Source: Kutzneria sp. 744 | Lineage (GTDB): Bacteria; Actinomycetota; Actinomycetes; Mycobacteriales; Pseudonocardiaceae | Assembly: GCF_000568255.1 (NCBI RefSeq) | Contig: NZ_KK037166.1 | Coordinates: forward strand, 9,269,372-9,333,371 | Direction of reading: 5' to 3' | Length of the DNA: 64,000 bases | Shown: positions 24,733 to 35,782 of the stretch, one piece after another | Layout of the letters: every line of letters starts with the position of its first letter | Position numbering within the stretch: position 1 is the first letter of the stretch | The notes under the pieces: model-generated | What the model was told of the DNA's origin: nothing | Databases searched by the model: none | What the model saw: the letters and a program-made list of their open reading frames with translations, nothing else | Position numbers and translations under genes: made by a program

Positions 24733-26124
24733 CTAGGGATTCAGGCGGTGGTGAATGCCGTGCAGCGCTTGGTGGATCTCGACATAAACGTCATAGAGGT
24801 CGTTGGTTTTTGACGGCAGGACGGTCTTCGCGACCGCGACAGCGGCCTCAGCAGCGGTTTCGGCGTCCGGGTACAGGCCCGCGCCGACGGCTCCCAGCAG
24901 CGCCGCGCCCAGCACGCCGGCGTCGTGCACCCGGAGCCGGTGGATCGGCCGTTGCAGCACGTCGGCGAAGATCTGCGCCCAGAGGTCGCTGCGGGCCCCG
25001 CCGCCGCAGAAAGCAAGCGCTTTCATCGGCGCACCACAGGCCTCTTCGACGAATTCGAGCACGTGCCGGCCGGACATCGCGACGCCTTCGAGCACCGCCC
25101 GGGACAGGTCGGCGCGGGTGGTCGCCGAGCTCACGTTGAGGAAGCTGGACCGCAGCGTGGAGTCCCAGAGCGGGGCCCGTTCGCCGGACAGGTAGGGCGT
25201 GAAGATCACCTGCGAGGCGCCGTTCGCGGCGTCGTCGAAGACCTCGGGGATGGTCAGGCCCGTCGTCTCGCTCCACCAGCGCACCGCGTCGCCGGCGGCT
25301 TGGGTGGGGCCGGCGTGCACGTAGAGGCCGTCGCGGGGCGGGAAGGTGACGATCCCGGCCGTGGGGACGTTCCTTTCGGACGCGCCCGCCACGACCAGGG
25401 AGGTTCCGCAGGAGATCATGCCCCGGCCCGGTTTGGTCGTGGCCGCGCCGAAGACCGCCCCGAAGGCGTCCATCGTGCCCACGACCAGGCCTTTCCCGAG
25501 GACCGACTCCGGTTCGAGGATCTCCGGCAGCCGCTCCCACAGCCCTTCGGTCACGCCGGCGGCTACCGGGATGTAGCCGCCCGCGTTCGCGATGCGTACG
25601 CCGGAGAGGAGGTCCGTGGCCACGCGGCCGGTGAGCTTCGCGCCGATGAAGTCCTTCGGGCTCAGGATCCAGCGGGCCTTCCGCCATGCCTCCGGCTCAT
25701 TGCGGGCGAACCACTCCGCCCTCGCGCCGACGAACGAGGCGTCCAGCGTGATCGGGCCGCCCCAGATCCGGGCCTTGTCCTCGACGGTGAACCGCCCGTC
25801 GAGCTCCTTGGCGATCTCCGCACACCGCTGGTCCTGCCAGATGATGGCCGGCGTCAGCGGGTTCAGGTCGTGGTCGACGAGAAGATGCGTGTTGACCTGG
25901 CTGACGATCCCGGTCGCAGTGATTGCGTAGCGGCCGGCGATGGCCTGGAGGCCTTCCTGGACCGCGCGCCACCAGTCGTCGGCGTCCTGCTCGGCCCAGC
26001 CCGGCCGGGGGCGGTGGATCGGGTAGCCGACCTGATGGTTCGCCAGGGGCTCCCCGTCGAGGCCGAAGGCCGCGACCTTGACCGCGGTGGTGCCGACGTC
26101 GATCCCCACCATCGCTTCACGCAC
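24733..26124 (-). CDS. FGGY-family carbohydrate kinase (xylulokinase/gluconokinase type)
   Basis: A 463-residue sugar kinase. The N-terminus VGIDVGTTAVKVAAF is the first ATP phosphate motif; IIWQDQRC and later FTPYLSGERAPLWD mark the sugar side. The C-terminal ATP motif is LAFCGGGARSDLWAQIFADVLQRP. It phosphorylates a pentose, pentulose or sugar acid; the family cannot be resolved further by eye. The GTG start has GGAGGT 8 bases upstream, and this RBS abuts a copy of the dispersed repeat. An ATG at 26112 is an alternative start. It lies downstream of the lux-like genes but is separated from them by 150 bp of repeat-rich spacer. Confidence 0.87.
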   Translation of the reverse strand: MREAMVGIDVGTTAVKVAAFGLDGEPLANHQVGYPIHRPRPGWAEQDADDWWRAVQEGLQAIAGRYAITATGIVSQVNTHLLVDHDLNPLTPAIIWQDQRCAEIAKELDGRFTVEDKARIWGGPITLDASFVGARAEWFARNEPEAWRKARWILSPKDFIGAKLTGRVATDLLSGVRIANAGGYIPVAAGVTEGLWERLPEILEPESVLGKGLVVGTMDAFGAVFGAATTKPGRGMISCGTSLVVAGASERNVPTAGIVTFPPRDGLYVHAGPTQAAGDAVRWWSETTGLTIPEVFDDAANGASQVIFTPYLSGERAPLWDSTLRSSFLNVSSATTRADLSRAVLEGVAMSGRHVLEFVEEACGAPMKALAFCGGGARSDLWAQIFADVLQRPIHRLRVHDAGVLGAALLGAVGAGLYPDAETAAEAAVAVAKTVLPSKTNDLYDVYVEIHQALHGIHHRLNP

Positions 26125-26274: not shown

Positions 26275-27585
26275 TCAGGCGAGGGCTTTGGTGCGCATGA
26301 GGAAGTCGGTGAGGTAGCTGTCGTGGGGGAGGTGGGGGTGGAAGTAGTGGGTGGGGCGGTTGCCTAGGTAGAGGTTGGCGATGGTGGGTTCGGACAGGAG
26401 AGAGGCGATCAGGGGGTGGTCGTCGGTGATGGCCGTCAGGACGAGGGTGTTGCGAAGGGGAGCTATGCCGTCCGCGCGGGTCCACGGGGCGATCCAGGCG
26501 CAGGGGAAGGGGAGCTCGGCGCCGAGTTGGGGGGAAGCGGCCGAGGGCAGTAGGTGCAGGGCTGGCCGGAGGACGGCGGAGCCGTCGCCGAGGTCGTGGA
26601 TCAGCTGGTCGGCGCCGAGAAAGGGCTGGGCGCCGGCGGCACGTTGAGCGAGGTGGTCGCGGAGGGCGACGGCGGCGGCGAGAGGGTAGCGGGGGAGAAC
26701 GGCATCGGGCAGGGCACTCAGGCGGGCGGCCAAGGCGGCGGCGAGGGGCGCGGGGTCGCCCTCGACGAGGATGCCGGTGGCGTTGATGCAGCCGACGCCG
26801 CCGTGATGGGCGATGGACGACACGATGGTGTCGAGGAAAGGCGCCCAGTCCCCGGCGGTGACGAGGATCTTGGAGCGGCCGGGGCCCTGGGGCAGGACGC
26901 GGGGGTTCCCGGCGTACTTGGCGATGACCTCGTCGCCGCCGTAGGCCATGCCGAGGTCGGCGCAGCGGAGGATCTCGTCGGCGACGTCGTGCTCGCACGG
27001 CAGGAGAATCACGTGGTCGTCGGGGAAACCGGCGGCACGTAGGGCGGCGATGAGCCGGTGCGGGGTGAAGGGTTCCCGGCGGGAAGGCCGGACGGCGACG
27101 CGGTAGCCGAGGGCAAGGGCTTGCAGCCACAGGGAATGCACGGCCGGATGGTTGCCGGCGGCATGGACGGCGAAGACGTGGCCGCGGCGGGTCCACACGG
27201 CGCCTTCGGCCACCCGGTCATCCTCCACAGTGGACGCGCCGCGCGGGCGGCCCTGCTGGGCGGCCTCGAAAGCCGTGCAGCACGCCTCGGAGATGGCGTT
27301 GGTGGCGAAGCGGATGTCGTCCAGGGGCAGGCCGGAGACGCGAGCCACCAGGTCCACGTAGTCGTCGGAATCCTTGGCGAACAGGGAACCGGCGGTGGCC
27401 AAGGCTCGAAGCCGTTGCGCCAGAGGTAGTTCCGACGCCCGATGGAGAGCCGACATGGTGCGGGTGACGTAGAGCCGGGGCATGAGGCTGACCGACGCGA
27501 CCGGCACGCCGGTGACGTCGGTGACGGTGAGCTGCTTGCGGGAACGGTAAGGGCCGACCGGGCCCAGGGCGTCCACGGCGAGCAT
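26275..27585 (-). CDS. LuxC-like acyl-CoA/acyl reductase (aldehyde dehydrogenase fold)
   Basis: A 436-residue aldehyde-dehydrogenase-superfamily protein of the LuxC acyl reductase type, which reduces an activated acyl group to an aldehyde with NADPH. A cofactor loop appears in FAVHAAGNHPAVHSLW, and the probable nucleophile is C266 in HGGVGCINATGI. Other LuxC-like segments are GMAYGGDEVIAKY and GPGRSKILVT. The ATG is 2 bp after the stop of the LuxE/PaaK-like gene. Order and spacing (luciferase-like, LuxE-like, LuxC-like) support a shared acyl-to-aldehyde function. The final three bases touch the dispersed repeat. Confidence 0.78.
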   Translation of the reverse strand: MLAVDALGPVGPYRSRKQLTVTDVTGVPVASVSLMPRLYVTRTMSALHRASELPLAQRLRALATAGSLFAKDSDDYVDLVARVSGLPLDDIRFATNAISEACCTAFEAAQQGRPRGASTVEDDRVAEGAVWTRRGHVFAVHAAGNHPAVHSLWLQALALGYRVAVRPSRREPFTPHRLIAALRAAGFPDDHVILLPCEHDVADEILRCADLGMAYGGDEVIAKYAGNPRVLPQGPGRSKILVTAGDWAPFLDTIVSSIAHHGGVGCINATGILVEGDPAPLAAALAARLSALPDAVLPRYPLAAAVALRDHLAQRAAGAQPFLGADQLIHDLGDGSAVLRPALHLLPSAASPQLGAELPFPCAWIAPWTRADGIAPLRNTLVLTAITDDHPLIASLLSEPTIANLYLGNRPTHYFHPHLPHDSYLTDFLMRTKALA

Positions 27586-27587
27586 GG

Positions 27588-28688
27588 CTAGTACACGCCC
27601 TCGATGACGGTCTCGCTGCCGAACACCTGCACGGGCGCGAGATCGCCGAGGGAATCGCCGGGCTGGCCGGGCAGCGCGGGCACGCGGATGGCCGTGTCAC
27701 GGTCAAGGTTGTTGGGCAGCAACATGGAACGGCTGACATGGTTGGTGACGACCTGGCCCCGTGTGCCGTACGGGACGGGCTCCAGCGAGACCGGATCGAC
27801 CACGCGGAAGGTGATGTGCGGCCCGAAGCCGTCGAAGATCGGGTACTCGGTGTCGCCGAGGCGCTGGCTGGCGCCGCCCATGATCATGGTGCTCCCGTAC
27901 ACGCCGTGCAGGGGAATGCCGGGGAAGACCTCGTTGCGGAACAGGTCGTGCGTGTCGGCGTCCATGTGGGCGCCGCCCCACATGACGAGCCGGACGTTGC
28001 GGGTGATGGCGGCCAGGAGATCGTCCCGCCGGGCCAGGCGCTCCAGCATGGGCGGCGTGGTCATGAGGACGCCGACCTCCTGGCTGAGCAGGATATGCGA
28101 GGACTGCTCGACCAGGTGTTCGACATAGGCGTCGGCCTGGGCCGTCTGGCCGGAGGCGATGAGCTTGCGGACCCAGCGCGGATCCATGTCCACTGTGTAC
28201 ATCAGGCCGCGCCGGGCCCGCGCCGCCAGGCCGATGAAGTGGCCGACGGCGTGGGGCCCGGTGGGCAGGATGCCCAGCCAGTTCAGGCCGAGGGGAATGC
28301 CCAGGCGGTCCAACGGCTCCAGCATGTGGGTGATCATCCGCTGGAGCCAGTCGTCGAGGAACACCACCCGCTTGGGCGGCCCCGTGGTGCCGCCGCTGTC
28401 GTACACGCCGACGATGTCGGCGGCATCGCCGTAGCCGCGCGGGATCAGGTGCTCGGGACGCACATTCCGGAGCTGGTCGACCACAGTGGGGAACAGCCGG
28501 AGATCCTCGACCGACCGCACCGCCTCGCGCGGGTCGAAGCCGAGCGAGGCGGCCTGCGCCAGCCAGAACGGCGACCCCGTCTCGGGATCGAAGTGCCACC
28601 GCATGGCCGCGCGGACGTACCCGTCGGCGTCGTCACCGGAGAGTTCGGCCCCGGGGAGATCATCGTTGTCCCGCACGCATTCGAACAT
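27588..28688 (-). CDS. LuxE/PaaK-like acyl-activating enzyme
   Basis: A 366-residue member of the LuxE/phenylacetate-CoA ligase group, in which an acid is adenylated and passed on as a thioester. The phosphate-binding motif of adenylating enzymes is present as YDSGGTTGPPKR at 96-107, and a second motif as HGVYGSTMIMGG. The length equals that of LuxE (about 370) and is shorter than PaaK (about 430). The ATG chosen gives MFECVRDND; the frame upstream to 29120 is the shadow of the luciferase-like gene. It abuts the LuxC-like gene, the classic partner of LuxE. Confidence 0.78.
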   Translation of the reverse strand: MFECVRDNDDLPGAELSGDDADGYVRAAMRWHFDPETGSPFWLAQAASLGFDPREAVRSVEDLRLFPTVVDQLRNVRPEHLIPRGYGDAADIVGVYDSGGTTGPPKRVVFLDDWLQRMITHMLEPLDRLGIPLGLNWLGILPTGPHAVGHFIGLAARARRGLMYTVDMDPRWVRKLIASGQTAQADAYVEHLVEQSSHILLSQEVGVLMTTPPMLERLARRDDLLAAITRNVRLVMWGGAHMDADTHDLFRNEVFPGIPLHGVYGSTMIMGGASQRLGDTEYPIFDGFGPHITFRVVDPVSLEPVPYGTRGQVVTNHVSRSMLLPNNLDRDTAIRVPALPGQPGDSLGDLAPVQVFGSETVIEGVY

Positions 28689-28716
28689 AACCCGGCGCCA
28701 ACCCGCGCGGAGTACA

Positions 28717-29745
28717 TCATCCGGGTGTACCCCAGGCCTTGGCCAGCAGCTCGTACGAACGCACGCGCGCGGCGTGGTCATGGGTGATCGTGGTGACGAC
28801 GACCTCGTCCGCGCCGGCCTTGGCGCGCAACTCCTCAAGGTCGGCGGCCACTTCCTCCGGCGCGCCAACGAACTGCGAGCCGACCCGGTCGGCCACCGAG
28901 GCGCGCTGCCGTTCGGTCCAAGGGAATGCCGCCACCTCGGCCGGCGAGGGATAGGGCGGCGCGCCGGTGCTGGACCGCACGCCGAGCACCCACTGACCGT
29001 AGCCGCTGGCCAGTTCCCTTGCGGCGGAAGTGGTTTCGGCCACGACGATGTCCGCCGACACGGCGACGTACGGCTCGGCCAGCCGGGTCGACGGCACGAA
29101 TGCCGCGCGGTAGGCGGCAATCGTGTCGAAAGCGGTCTCCGGCGCGAAGTGGTAGGCCACGCCGAACGGCAGACCCAGCGCCCCGGCGGCCCGGGCGCTC
29201 TCGCCCGGCGTCGCGCCGTGGATCCACACCTGCAACCGCGCGTGCTCCGCGGCGACGGCGTGGTGCTCGCCGGTGCCGTCCAGGAACTCCAGGATCGACC
29301 GCACCTGGTTGAGGTACGGGCCGGCGTCCATGGGAATGAGGATCCGGTTCAGCTGCTCCCACACCGTCAGCTGCGCGTCCGGGACCTTGCCGACCACCTC
29401 GGCCAGCTTGGTCGTCCCGGACCGGCCCAGACCGAGGTCGACACGGTCGGGGTGCAGGTGCGCGAGGGTGCCGAACTGCTCGGCCGCGACCACGGGCGAG
29501 ACGTAGCCGAGCAGCACCGCCGCCGAGCCGACCCGAATGCGGGACGTGGCCTCGGCGATGACGGTGGCGAGCACGGACGGGGCCGCCGCGGCCACGCCCG
29601 GCGTGAGGTGGTGCTGGGCCACCCAGTAACGGTGGTAGCCCAGCTCCTCCGCCCGCCGGGCGAGGTCGACGCTGTTGCGCAGCGCCTCCGCCGCGCTGCC
29701 GCCGGAGACGATCGGCGACAGGTCCAATACGGACAGTGGGATCAT
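28717..29745 (-). CDS. luciferase-like (LLM class) flavin monooxygenase
   Basis: A 342-residue bacterial-luciferase-family TIM-barrel protein of the MsnO8-like single-chain group. Typical text is [48 protein letters not shown] and [10 protein letters not shown]. Such enzymes use reduced FMN and oxygen. It is the first of three genes in one direction: 28 bp before the LuxE-like gene, with the LuxC-like gene next. In true luminescent bacteria, LuxCE make the aldehyde that LuxAB oxidise. Light emission is not implied here, since there is no second luciferase subunit, LuxD or LuxG. Confidence 0.85.
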
Positions 29746-29749
29746 GCTT

Positions 29750-31126
29750 CTACGATACGGTGAAGAAGACGTCCGTGCGGTTGTCCGGCTGGCCGCTGTT
29801 GGTCTTGGCGAACACCGACACGAAGCACGTGCCGGCCGCGGCCATGCCGTGGTAGTCGCCGACGTAGTACGAGCCGTCGTTGACGACCGGCGCGGCCGTG
29901 ATGTCGAACGGACCGGACAACTTGGTGGTGTGCCACGAGGTTCCGGTGGCCGAGGTGGCCTGCCAGTACGACGTGCCAGTGCTGTCGAGCTGGTAGTACG
30001 TCACGCCGACGACCCCGTCGGAGTTGACCGCGACGGCCGGCATGAACTGCTTGGCCGGCGAGGAGCCGACCGGAACCGGCGCGGACCAGGTCGCCCCGGC
30101 GTCGGTGGAGGTGGCCATGACGGCGCCGTCGTGGTCGCCGGCGAACTGCGAACCCTGCCACACGGCACGGAGTTCGCCGTGCGGGCCGGCCGCGAGCTGC
30201 CCGAACACGTCGTGCCCGTCACGCACGTTCTTGCCGCCCGGCTCCTTGGTGCCGACCGACTTGGCCTGACCGGCGACGGCCGGCGCGGACCAGGTCTCGC
30301 CGAGGTCGGCCGAGGTGATCGACCGCCAGGACGTGGCGTAGTCGGCCGTGCCCGGAATCGGCTCGTAGTAGGCGAAGAAGGCGACCAGCTTGCCCTGCAC
30401 GGACGCCAGCCGGACGCCGGACGCGCCCTTGCCGACGCCGAAGTCCACGACCTTGCGGGGCTCGCCCCACGTCGTGCCGCCGTCGCCGCTGTGGGCCAGG
30501 TAGATCGGGCCGGTGCCGTCGTCCAGGTTGATCCGGTCCCACGCCACGTAGACGTCCTTGCCGGTGGTGTACACCGTCGGCAGGTCGTTCCAGATGTTGT
30601 CGGTGTCGCCCGTGCCCTCACGGGTGATCGTGGTCGGCGTGCCCCAGCTGCGGCCGCCGTCGCCCGACTTCACGACCAGCAGCGCGTGGTCGCCGTGCGG
30701 GGTGGTGGTGTTCATGCTCAGCGACGTCAGGAAGACCATGCCGTTGGGGGCGATGGACACCTGGGTGTCGGTGGCGCGGTCGAAAGCTCCGCCCGAGCAC
30801 GTCGAGACGGCCGGCGGCGTGGCGTAGGTCCAGGTGCGGCCGCCGTCGAAGGTGGCCGCGGTGATCAGGCCGTGGCCGCCGACGCCCTGCCAGCGGTCGG
30901 TCTGGAAGGCCGAGACCATGTGCGACGGGTTACGCGGGTCGACCGCGATGTCCGGCTGCACCTCGGCGTTCGGGTAATTGGTGCCGACCGGGTCCTTGTG
31001 GTCGCAGCCCGCCGGGAAGGGGCTGGGCGTCGAGATCTTGACCGCGGTGGGCGGGGTGTCCGCGTGAGCGATTGCCGGGGCCAGCGCCAGTAAGCCGGCG
31101 ACGGCAGTGACCAGGTACTTTTTCAT
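29750..31126 (-). CDS. secreted BNR-repeat (sialidase-fold) protein
   Basis: A 458-residue exported protein with a signal peptide ([21 protein letters not shown], cleaved after about residue 22). Asp-box/BNR motifs recur: [25 protein letters not shown] and TDAGATWS, each marking a blade of a sialidase-like beta-propeller. The arginine triad and Tyr/Glu pair of true sialidases are not evident to me, so binding or another hydrolase activity is equally possible. The start follows a purine-rich leader. The neighbours on the same strand are a membrane protein upstream and the luciferase-like gene 5 bp downstream. Confidence 0.78.
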
Positions 31127-33347: not shown

Positions 33348-34715
33348 TTAGCCCTTGTATTGCGCGAATGTACGAGTGAAGTCCCACGCGTTCTGTGCAA
33401 CACCCGAACACGTGTCGTCGTTGGGGTAGGCGCCGGGGCACGGCCGGTCCCGGTTGGCCGACCAGTAGGTGAACCGGCCCAGGTGGTGCTGGTTGGCGTA
33501 ACCGAGCATGGTCTGGGCGTTGGCAGGCGTCACCCGCTCGTTGTTGTCGGTGATGCCGTTCATGGAGGACAGGCCGCTGTGGCGGTAGGCAACGTCGTCG
33601 CTGTAGTGGTAGGCGTCGCGCACCGCCCGCTCCAGGCCGTCGGTGGCCTGCGCGGTGAGCCTGGCCATGTCCTGGCCGGCTCCGCCGAAGTCGAACGGCA
33701 TGATGGTCCACACGTCCACGGTCAGCCCGGAGTTGGCCGCCCGGGTGATCAGGTCGTTGCCCGGGCCGTCCTGGCCGCTGCCGATGGTGATGTAGATGGC
33801 GATCCCGGCGTTGTTCGACCGGATGATCTTCAGGGCGTCCACCATGCGCTGCTGGTAGGTGGCGTTGCCGTAGACGTCGCCCTCGAAGTCGAGGTCGATC
33901 GCCTTCAGGCCGTAGGTGTTGATCACCTTCTGGTACGCCCCGGCCAGCTCGCCCGGGGTGTTGCAGGAGGCCTCCAGCTTGTTGCCGTTGGCCCCGCCGA
34001 ACGACGGCACCACGTCACCGCCGGCCGAGCGGATGGTGTTGATGGTGTTCTGGTCCACGCCGCCGGTCAGCGGCCGGCCGCCGTCCCACATCGGGTTGCA
34101 GTACCCGTTGTTGAGCACGAACGCCATCGTGAACCACTTGACGCCGGTCGCGCTCATGATGGTGCGCGGGTCCGGCGGGTCGCCCCAGCCGTTGTAGTAG
34201 TACGGCGCGACGGCCATCGCCCCGTTCGGCGGGGGCGGGGGCGGCGGGGGAGTGGTGCCGCCGCCGGGGGCCGCCCAGGTCTGGTTGGCCGAGCCGGCGC
34301 AGTCCCAGATCTGGAGCAGGGTTCCGTTGGCGGAGCTGTTGTTGGTGGCGTCCAGGCATTTGCCCAGGGCCTGGAGCGAGCCGTTGCCGCCGACCGTCCA
34401 CTGCTGCGCGCCGGAGCCGTTGCAGTCCCACAGCTGCACCTTGGTGCCGTTGGCGGGATTCGCGCCGGCCACGTCCAGGCACTTGCCCAGCGCCTGGAGG
34501 CTGCCGTCGGAGCCGGTGGTCCACTGCTGGGCGGGGGTGCCGTTGCAGTCGTAGAGCTGCACGGCGGTGCCGTTGGCGCTGTTGGCCCCGGCCACGTCGA
34601 CGCACTTGCCGCCGAAGCCGGTGATCGCCCCGGTCGCCGCGGACGCGGTGCCCGGCAGCAGCACGGTCGTGATCGCGGCCGCGCCGGCGAGCAGCGCGAG
34701 GGATTTCCTGATCAT
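33348..34715 (-). CDS. secreted GH18 chitinase-like enzyme with N-terminal ricin-type CBM13
   Basis: A 455-residue exported protein. The signal peptide ends in TASA near residue 27. A beta-trefoil CBM13 follows, with repeats such as GKCLDVAG and QLYDCNGT...QQW, then a proline linker. The catalytic GH18 barrel is in the second half: the active-site motif D-x-D-x-E is visible in KAIDLDFEG, and strand 3 is SFGGANGN. It hydrolyses chitin or related beta-1,4-GlcNAc polymers. Its ATG overlaps the GH75 stop (ATGA), so it is the third gene of a coupled operon. The last 120 residues carry the barrel end and WSANRDRPCPG. Confidence 0.88.
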   Translation of the reverse strand: MIRKSLALLAGAAAITTVLLPGTASAATGAITGFGGKCVDVAGANSANGTAVQLYDCNGTPAQQWTTGSDGSLQALGKCLDVAGANPANGTKVQLWDCNGSGAQQWTVGGNGSLQALGKCLDATNNSSANGTLLQIWDCAGSANQTWAAPGGGTTPPPPPPPPNGAMAVAPYYYNGWGDPPDPRTIMSATGVKWFTMAFVLNNGYCNPMWDGGRPLTGGVDQNTINTIRSAGGDVVPSFGGANGNKLEASCNTPGELAGAYQKVINTYGLKAIDLDFEGDVYGNATYQQRMVDALKIIRSNNAGIAIYITIGSGQDGPGNDLITRAANSGLTVDVWTIMPFDFGGAGQDMARLTAQATDGLERAVRDAYHYSDDVAYRHSGLSSMNGITDNNERVTPANAQTMLGYANQHHLGRFTYWSANRDRPCPGAYPNDDTCSGVAQNAWDFTRTFAQYKG

Positions 34716-35782
34716 GCGACCGTCCACTTCTGGTTCGCGGAGCCGGCGCAGTCCCAGATCTGCAGCCGGGTTCCGTTGGCGGAGCTGTTGTTCGAGGCGT
34801 CGAGGCACTTGCCCAGCGCCCGCACCGAGCCGTCGTCCGGGCGGGACCAGTTCTGCGCGGCGCTGCCGTTGCAGTCCCACAGCTGGACCACGGTTCCGTT
34901 GGCCGAGTTCGCGCCGGAGACGTCGAGGCACTTGCCGAGGGCACGGATGGTGCCGTCGGAACCGGTGGTCCACTGCTGCGCGGCGCTGCCGTTGCAGTCG
35001 TAGAGCTGGACGGCGGTGCCATTGGTGTTGTTGGCCCCGGCCACATCCACGCACTTGCCGCCGATGCCGGTGATCGTGCCGCCGGTGGGCGGCGGCGGGT
35101 TGCCACCGCCACCGCCGACGAACGTGGTGGCCAGTTGCTGGCCCAGAGACACGGCGCTGCCGTGATTCTCGATCGGGTTCACCTGCGAGTGCGGGAACAC
35201 GATGTAGGTGACACCGCTGTCGGTGCCACCGTTGCGCGGATCGGGGTTGATGCCCAGCGACTGCGCGGTGGCGTACGAGGCCTCGCCGATGATCCCGGTC
35301 GGACCGGTGTCGCCGACGACCGCATAGGTCACCTGGTTGTTGTAGATCACCGCGACCACCGCGCCGCCCTCGATGCCGGCCGTCCGGTAGTCCCAGATGC
35401 CCGACGGGCTCGGCAGCACGATGTAGGGCAGCTGCGCCGCGTTCAGCGGCTGGTCGGTGGATGTGTGGAAAGCGGTGTCCGGGTAGAAGCAGCAGTCGGT
35501 CTGCTCGTTGCACTGCGAGGTGCGCACACCGTCGCAGTCGACGTCCATGTCGCCCTTGAAGAACACGGCGCCATTGGCCTGGCAGACGGGAATGCTGCCG
35601 CCCTGGCCTTCGTCGGTGGCGTAGGTGCCGTTGGAGATCTGCTGGCAGTTGGTCACCTTGGCCAGCAGCTGGCTGGCCGACGGGCCGCCCGGATCGGACG
35701 CCATGGCCGGTGCCGAGGTCACGCCGAACAGGGGCAGGGCCAACAGGAAACCGGCGAGCACGGTGAGAATTCGCCTGCGCAT
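34712..35782 (-). CDS. secreted GH75 chitosanase with C-terminal ricin-type CBM13
   Basis: A 356-residue exported enzyme. The signal peptide is followed by a GH75 fungal-type chitosanase domain to about residue 230: AVFFKGDMDVDCDG, DTAFHTS, VVAVIYNNQVTYAVVGDTGP and GEASYA carry the conserved acidic residues. A Gly/Pro linker (GGGGGNPPPPTGG) and a CBM13 ricin trefoil (about 248-356) end the protein. It cleaves chitosan, the deacetylated chitin of zygomycete and other fungal walls. Its start shares one base with the GH16 stop, and its stop overlaps the GH18 start, so all three are translated together. Confidence 0.9.
   Translation of the reverse strand: MRRRILTVLAGFLLALPLFGVTSAPAMASDPGGPSASQLLAKVTNCQQISNGTYATDEGQGGSIPVCQANGAVFFKGDMDVDCDGVRTSQCNEQTDCCFYPDTAFHTSTDQPLNAAQLPYIVLPSPSGIWDYRTAGIEGGAVVAVIYNNQVTYAVVGDTGPTGIIGEASYATAQSLGINPDPRNGGTDSGVTYIVFPHSQVNPIENHGSAVSLGQQLATTFVGGGGGNPPPPTGGTITGIGGKCVDVAGANNTNGTAVQLYDCNGSAAQQWTTGSDGTIRALGKCLDVSGANSANGTVVQLWDCNGSAAQNWSRPDDGSVRALGKCLDASNNSSANGTRLQIWDCAGSANQKWTVA

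Follow-up and report, generated by a model that had tools for sequence, protein, structure and literature searches.

Organization of the locus

The genes described here lie in a 64,000-nucleotide stretch of the Kutzneria sp. 744 genome (contig NZ_KK037166.1, positions 9,269,372 to 9,333,371 of the forward strand), henceforth referred to as the window; the genome itself is 11.65 Mb long and assembled as one contig. Three minus-strand genes between window positions 26275 and 29745 encode an adenylase (ADE), a reductase (RED) and a luciferase-like monooxygenase (LLM), and ADE and RED together are referred to as the pair. An earlier note on this DNA had presented the three genes as a Lux-like trio. 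Its account of the layout, with three genes in one direction, proteins of 342 and 366 residues and gaps of 28 bp between LLM and ADE and 2 bp between ADE and RED, was confirmed from the open reading frames (ORFs) and their coordinates. The features are as follows:

28717..29745, minus strand: LLM (P0003), MsnO8-family luciferase-like monooxygenase dependent on flavin mononucleotide (FMN), 342 residues, ATG start, assigned by TIGR03558 and PDB 4us5
27588..28688, minus strand: ADE (P0002), predicted EhpF-type adenylating enzyme of the ANL superfamily, 366 residues, assigned by phmmer, the P-loop and the ratio of nonsynonymous to synonymous substitution rates (dN/dS)
26275..27585, minus strand: RED, predicted EhpG-type aryl-acyl reductase with an aldehyde dehydrogenase (ALDH) fold, 436 residues, ATG start

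The start of ADE is an in-frame codon inside a longer ORF. Pfam assigned LLM to Bac_luciferase (7e-41), ADE to AMP-binding (1e-10) and RED to Aldedh (3e-12).

Identity of the adenylase and the reductase

ADE matched EhpF (PDB 3hgu/3l2k) by phmmer with an E value of 9e-78, residues 19–366 of the query aligning to residues 18–366 of the chain. The GGT of its P-loop motif SGGTTGxPK is conserved in all 146 aligned rows, and the Lys of the motif is replaced by Cys in 8 of them. RED, which adjoins ADE, is homologous to EhpG and has a complete ALDH fold. The catalytic Cys266 pointed out in the earlier note is present and invariant (133/133 aligned rows). Among the five Kutzneria genomes that hold the pair, dN/dS was 0.15–0.27 for ADE and 0.17–0.36 for RED, indicating purifying selection on both genes. 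ADE, at 9.3 Mb, is the only adenylase homologue of its kind in the genome.

EhpF and EhpG belong to the D-alanylgriseoluteic acid phenazine operon of Pantoea/Enterobacter agglomerans. Both window proteins are homologous to them over nearly their full length, the genes are adjacent and in the same order, and the adenylases share a length of 366 residues and a C-terminal VIEGVY. Identity, however, is only 38% and 33%, respectively, and the window locus differs in having no adjoining phenazine markers.

The Lux system shares the general logic of the pair, in that adenylation precedes a reduction for which an ALDH-like protein supplies the Cys, and LuxE carries an acyl-accepting Cys near its C terminus. 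The labels LuxE-like and LuxC-like given in the earlier note could nevertheless not be retained, and membership in LuxC/LuxE was rejected. Neither RED nor ADE matched a Pfam LuxC or LuxE family at E ≤ 0.01, and the sole match to PF05893 (LuxC) in the whole genome (E ≤ 0.001) lies away from the locus. ADE cannot use a LuxE-type C-terminal Cys because its only Cys is at position 4. The monooxygenase beside the pair likewise differs from LuxA/LuxB.

Proposed reaction

Based on homology, fold, conserved residues, gene pairing and purifying selection, ADE and RED are most likely the two components of an aryl carboxylic acid reductase that depends on ATP and NAD(P)H and belongs to the EhpF/EhpG (GriC/GriD-like) kind. 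Acid activation and reduction to an aldehyde, as the earlier note had suggested, is very probable for these two proteins. ADE would bind an aromatic carboxylic acid and ATP and form an aryl-adenylate, as expected from its likeness to EhpF and its intact P-loop. The acyl group would then be transferred to Cys266 of RED, whose invariance suits a thioester-forming residue, and NAD(P)H would reduce the thioester to the free aldehyde.

According to an excerpt of PMC10179220, GriC and GriD of grixazone biosynthesis in Streptomyces griseus adenylate 3-amino-4-hydroxybenzoic acid (3,4-AHBA) and reduce it to the aldehyde, and as described there this two-part reduction via an acyl-AMP resembles the one proposed here. 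Members of the pair family adjoin GriI/GriH-type genes in three loci (L045, L085 and L086), whereas the window pair has no GriI or GriH beside it.

In an alternative reading, ADE would ligate aryl acids to CoA or to a carrier, and RED would be an ordinary aldehyde dehydrogenase serving acid salvage. The Pfam matches, which name only the generic AMP-binding and Aldedh families, would agree with such roles. Position 233 of RED, matched to the Glu base of ALDH hydrolysis by a HMMER alignment to 1uxn, was occupied by Q (94), N (16), L (8), R (6), F (5), H (3) or Y (1) in the 133 rows and by Glu in none; since the aligned residue is not Glu, reduction fits better than aldehyde oxidation. The close kin of the two proteins are EhpF/EhpG of an antibiotic pathway, and the pairing of the genes is steady across Actinomycetota and Chloroflexota. 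The salvage alternative is accordingly regarded as very doubtful.

Several points weigh against the assignment as a two-component reductase. The alignment that places position 233 is weak, and a ligase that feeds CoA or a carrier protein, together with an ALDH that oxidises aldehydes, is improbable but conceivable. The kinship to GriC/GriD is indirect, as these were set beside the pair by description. RED was not seen near ADE in 12 of the 60 family-level loci surveyed below. In a tree built by a quick method, the Kutzneria ADE clade forms a deep branch of its own, outside the clade that contains most phenazine-cluster copies, and the substrate class may therefore differ. Lastly, the dN/dS of 0.21 between the two holders of LLM points to purifying selection, and hence to some function of this gene in them.

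Distribution of the pair

An ADE homologue (E ≤ 1e-20) was found in 59 of 390 genomes in a family-level set. These yielded 70 places, and 60 of the 69 outside the Kutzneria sp. 744 genome were taken as family loci; seven of the nine omitted have 34–36% identity. The named loci are the best 80 of 587 confirmed by a scan of genome contigs and thus represent the closest relatives only. Some genomes are counted both as a family and as a named locus (e.g., L041 and L110), and L084 was omitted from the ADE tree as too short.

RED was found beside ADE in 48 of the 60 family loci and in 80/80 named loci. A neighbourhood survey, as called for in the earlier note, thus bore out the co-occurrence of the two genes but not that of LLM, which is treated below. 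Over the window, plasmid, family and named loci combined (147, with some genomes entered twice), both genes were present in 134; they share a strand in 132, and RED directly follows ADE in 123 of those. The reversed order, with RED before ADE, was seen in the Streptomyces loci L111–L114 and L175.

At least three of PhzB/D/E/F/G were present in 5 of the 60 family loci, in 14 of the 80 named loci (best 80 of 587) and in three of six plasmid loci, and GriH- and GriI-type genes occurred together at the three loci given above. No tested precursor marker was found beside the pair in 44 of the 60 family loci and 58 of the 80 named loci. Some pairs therefore lie in phenazine or 3,4-AHBA clusters and many are orphans; judged from these marker counts, pairs of this kind serve several aryl-acid pathways and are mostly orphans within the stretch examined.

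In the quick-method tree, the Kutzneria pairs (five genomes, six rows) have a fully supported, long-stemmed ADE branch with no clear sister. Five loci of Ktedonobacteraceae (Chloroflexota; L118, L119, L121, L122 and L151) carry the pair and group with actinomycete sequences, which suggests a transfer of the pair. A divergent ADE group at about 35% identity (L090–L097) is without a detected RED in these loci; in seven of the eight, a common protein is encoded directly before ADE, and the one copy scanned (L090) has an acyltransferase domain.

Other genes recur beside the pair. A protein of 470–570 residues is encoded after RED in L044, L050, L052–L054 and L057; in the one copy scanned (L044) its C-terminal part is an O-methyltransferase domain and its N-terminal part received no assignment. 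The pair lies beside an oppositely oriented regulator gene that looks TetR-type in L116, L133, L148 and L175 and LysR-type in L158 and L170 (by eye, one member of each read).

The genome was also searched for a phenazine pathway. PhzA/B (PF03284) and PhzD gave no match in the Kutzneria sp. 744 genome, whereas a second Kutzneria genome (G222) served as a positive control for both. The sole PhzE homologue (3.40 Mb) has no PhzB, PhzD, PhzF or PhzG within the surrounding 40 kb, PhzF having been searched in that stretch and not genome-wide. A PhzE-type match is present in all seven genus genomes, and in the six compared it has the same surroundings; because of this recurrence, the homologue looks like an ordinary fused anthranilate synthase. 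A phenazine pathway in this genome was rejected on these grounds. With PhzA/B and PhzD not found, the pair probably acts on a different aryl acid that is either imported or synthesised at another place in the cell.

In addition, one of the phenazine clusters surveyed (L046) belongs to G222 and includes another, distinct pair. This pair is only 52–54% similar to the window pair, and a ketosynthase–acyl carrier protein (KS-ACP) is encoded about 6 kb away.

The luciferase-like gene and the flanking genes

LLM scored 302 bits against NCBIfam TIGR03558, the MsnO8 family (cut-off 166.95), and MsnO8 itself (PDB 4us5, E 3e-44) was its only PDB match at E ≤ 1e-10. Scores against the NCBIfam models for luciferase alpha/beta (LuxA/LuxB) were far lower, at 33 bits (cut-off 600) and 19.7 bits (cut-off 500). 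The expectation in the earlier note that light is unlikely was upheld. MsnO8 is described as an FMN-dependent, epoxide-forming enzyme in an excerpt of PMC8093152. The MsnO8 of mensacarcin sits in a polyketide cluster, whereas LLM lies beside an aryl acid reductase pair.

Two further genes flank the three and are given as context:

29750..31126, minus strand: BNR-repeat (sialidase-like) protein, assigned by a BNR_2 match and synteny, with the gene caller start at 31126
24733..26112, minus strand: FGGY carbohydrate kinase, assigned by Pfam FGGY_N/FGGY_C on an ORF reaching 26124 and by synteny

The BNR gene, whose longer ORF gave the BNR_2 match (8e-14), lies upstream of LLM on the same strand at a distance of only 4 bp, closer than LLM lies to ADE, and synteny shows it to be a conserved neighbour of the locus in the genus. 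The FGGY kinase gene follows RED after a gap of about 160 bp and was not detected in one genus relative (L040) in the synteny comparison. A functional tie of the pair to the FGGY kinase, to an M20 peptidase or to the BNR gene is unsupported, as the stretch is plain genus synteny. Elsewhere in the window (33348–35761, minus strand), two adjacent secreted-looking proteins carry repeated LWDCNGSxxQxW motifs that appear ricin-B-like by eye.

According to the earlier note, LLM would be a functional third member, with the pair making an aldehyde that LLM oxidises in one dedicated, non-luminous pathway. The shared strand and short gaps are in keeping with this, as is the occurrence of LLM, ADE and RED together in both the window and G222 (LLM 90% identical). 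A window-like LLM was absent, however, from all 80 named loci (best 80 of 587; flanks of at most 8 kb, less where a contig ended) and present in only one of the 60 family loci (L039). A close LLM homologue (E ≤ 1e-80) was found in 11 of the 390 family genomes, next to the pair only in Kutzneria sp. 744 and G222.

In five Kutzneria genomes the pair lies in a shared syntenic stretch. Intact copies of LLM, 90% identical to each other, remain in the window and in L039; the gene is missing from L038, L040 and L041. The BNR–ADE spacers of these three contain LLM fragments in the same order and orientation, for instance one of 62 bp in L038 (80.6% identity), one of 42 bp in L041 (85.7%) and a weaker one of 25 bp in L040 (92%); base-shuffled spacer controls reached E ≤ 0.05 in 0, 0 and 1 of 200. 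Because these collinear fragments remain, LLM stood at the locus in the common ancestor of the five genus genomes and was later deleted in three, and the idea of LLM as a recent insertion was dropped.

The relics cut both ways. They make the three-gene arrangement ancestral to the five genus loci, yet LLM decayed in three of the five while ADE and RED stayed intact, so the pair does not depend on it. The distance from LLM to the BNR gene (4 bp) is also smaller than its distance from the pair (28 bp), and LLM belongs to the MsnO8 family, not to LuxA/LuxB. A dedicated three-gene pathway is therefore considered most improbable, and LLM is a separate FMN monooxygenase, a dispensable neighbour that is not a conserved part of the pair. 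The constraint on LLM between the window and L039 indicates that it is functional in these two holders. Among the open-licence papers listed, none dealt with such a pair together with an LLM.

A cma-type cluster as a candidate source of substrate

A cma/ava-type cluster is located at G000:C1:3044861-3061403 (3.05 Mb; L191 and L192) and encodes 3,4-AHBA synthases, a diazotase and a nitrosuccinate lyase. Scores were 370 bits for PF01959, 1065.6 for the AvaA6 equivalog (cut-off 975) and 470.6 for AvaA7 (cut-off 400), and the nitrosuccinate lyase reached 591 bits, below its cut-off of 650. Gene order was like that of Kutzneria albida cma when compared with Table 1 as contained in an excerpt of PMC10777205, where cma is the p-coumaric acid cluster. 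All 14 cma parts searched were found in five genus relatives and 11 of 14 in a further one (G225), in which E and D fall at or past the contig end and F was not found. In Kutzneria sp. 744 the acyl-ACP (acyl carrier protein) ligase gene cmaA1 is split over two frames, whereas both pieces are in one open frame in 6/6 relatives; the interruption is possibly an assembly error. Because of it, p-coumaric acid may not be made and the pathway may stop at 3,4-AHBA, which would not be affected by the interruption and is therefore the better candidate substrate.

These genes permit a reading in which the pair acts in trans, reducing the 3,4-AHBA, 3-aminocoumaric acid or p-coumaric acid of this pathway to the aldehyde. 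Besides the presence of the cluster and its cma-like gene order, 3,4-AHBA is the GriC/GriD substrate in the excerpt of PMC10179220, and the pair family occurs beside GriI/GriH-type genes in L045, L085 and L086. PF01959 is also commoner in genomes with an ADE homologue (24/59 versus 64/331; Fisher p 6e-4, hand-counted), although this test ignores kinship and counts genomes whose ADE homologue has no RED. The split cmaA1 speaks against p-coumaric acid as the product of the cluster, and in the tree other sequences are closer to the window pair than the three from GriI/GriH clusters. The pair was not found in the seven stretches around the relatives' cma-type genes, nor in that of Kutzneria sp. 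744 itself. The cma-type genes occur in all seven genus genomes; because two of these have the cluster without the pair, the link between cluster and pair is offered as a hypothesis only, and reduction of a cma-pathway acid in trans is judged rather unlikely. An extended version, in which a chromosomally fixed orphan pair reduces such an acid in trans and the MsnO8-type monooxygenase of the ancestral locus acted on the product, a step now being lost across the genus, is less likely again.

Cinnamate substrates were hinted at by a gene of the aromatic amino acid lyase type immediately next to ADE in L068, L070, L071 and L078. NCBIfam assigned the one copy scanned, that of L068, to tyrosine 2,3-aminomutase, which weakens this candidate. 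Aryl acid reduction in the genus has been described for another enzyme type, a one-chain aryl carboxylic acid reductase of Kutzneria albida used for vanillin production in a C. glutamicum host (excerpt of PMC11064420).

Discussion

The locus is most likely an orphan, lineage-specific copy of a known kind of two-component reductase, and its novelty is limited to that. The role that the earlier note had called undescribed is not so for the pair, which has EhpF/EhpG relatives and a GriC/GriD-like predicted function; the word applies solely to what the present orphan copy acts on. The Lux-based label is corrected here to a probable two-component aryl carboxylic acid reductase. The LLM relics provide an example of an apparent operon member that was lost in several relatives. 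Should the pair act in trans on a cma-pathway acid with an ancestral LLM step, this would constitute a metabolite branch not described before, with its genes divided between two distant loci.

Cassettes of this kind occur widely among actinomycetes and extend to Ktedonobacteria, in most cases with none of the tested precursor genes adjoining. Reductases encoded by only two genes offer compact tools for the production of aromatic aldehydes, and the orphan pairs point to unlinked pathways that are missed by cluster-based genome mining.

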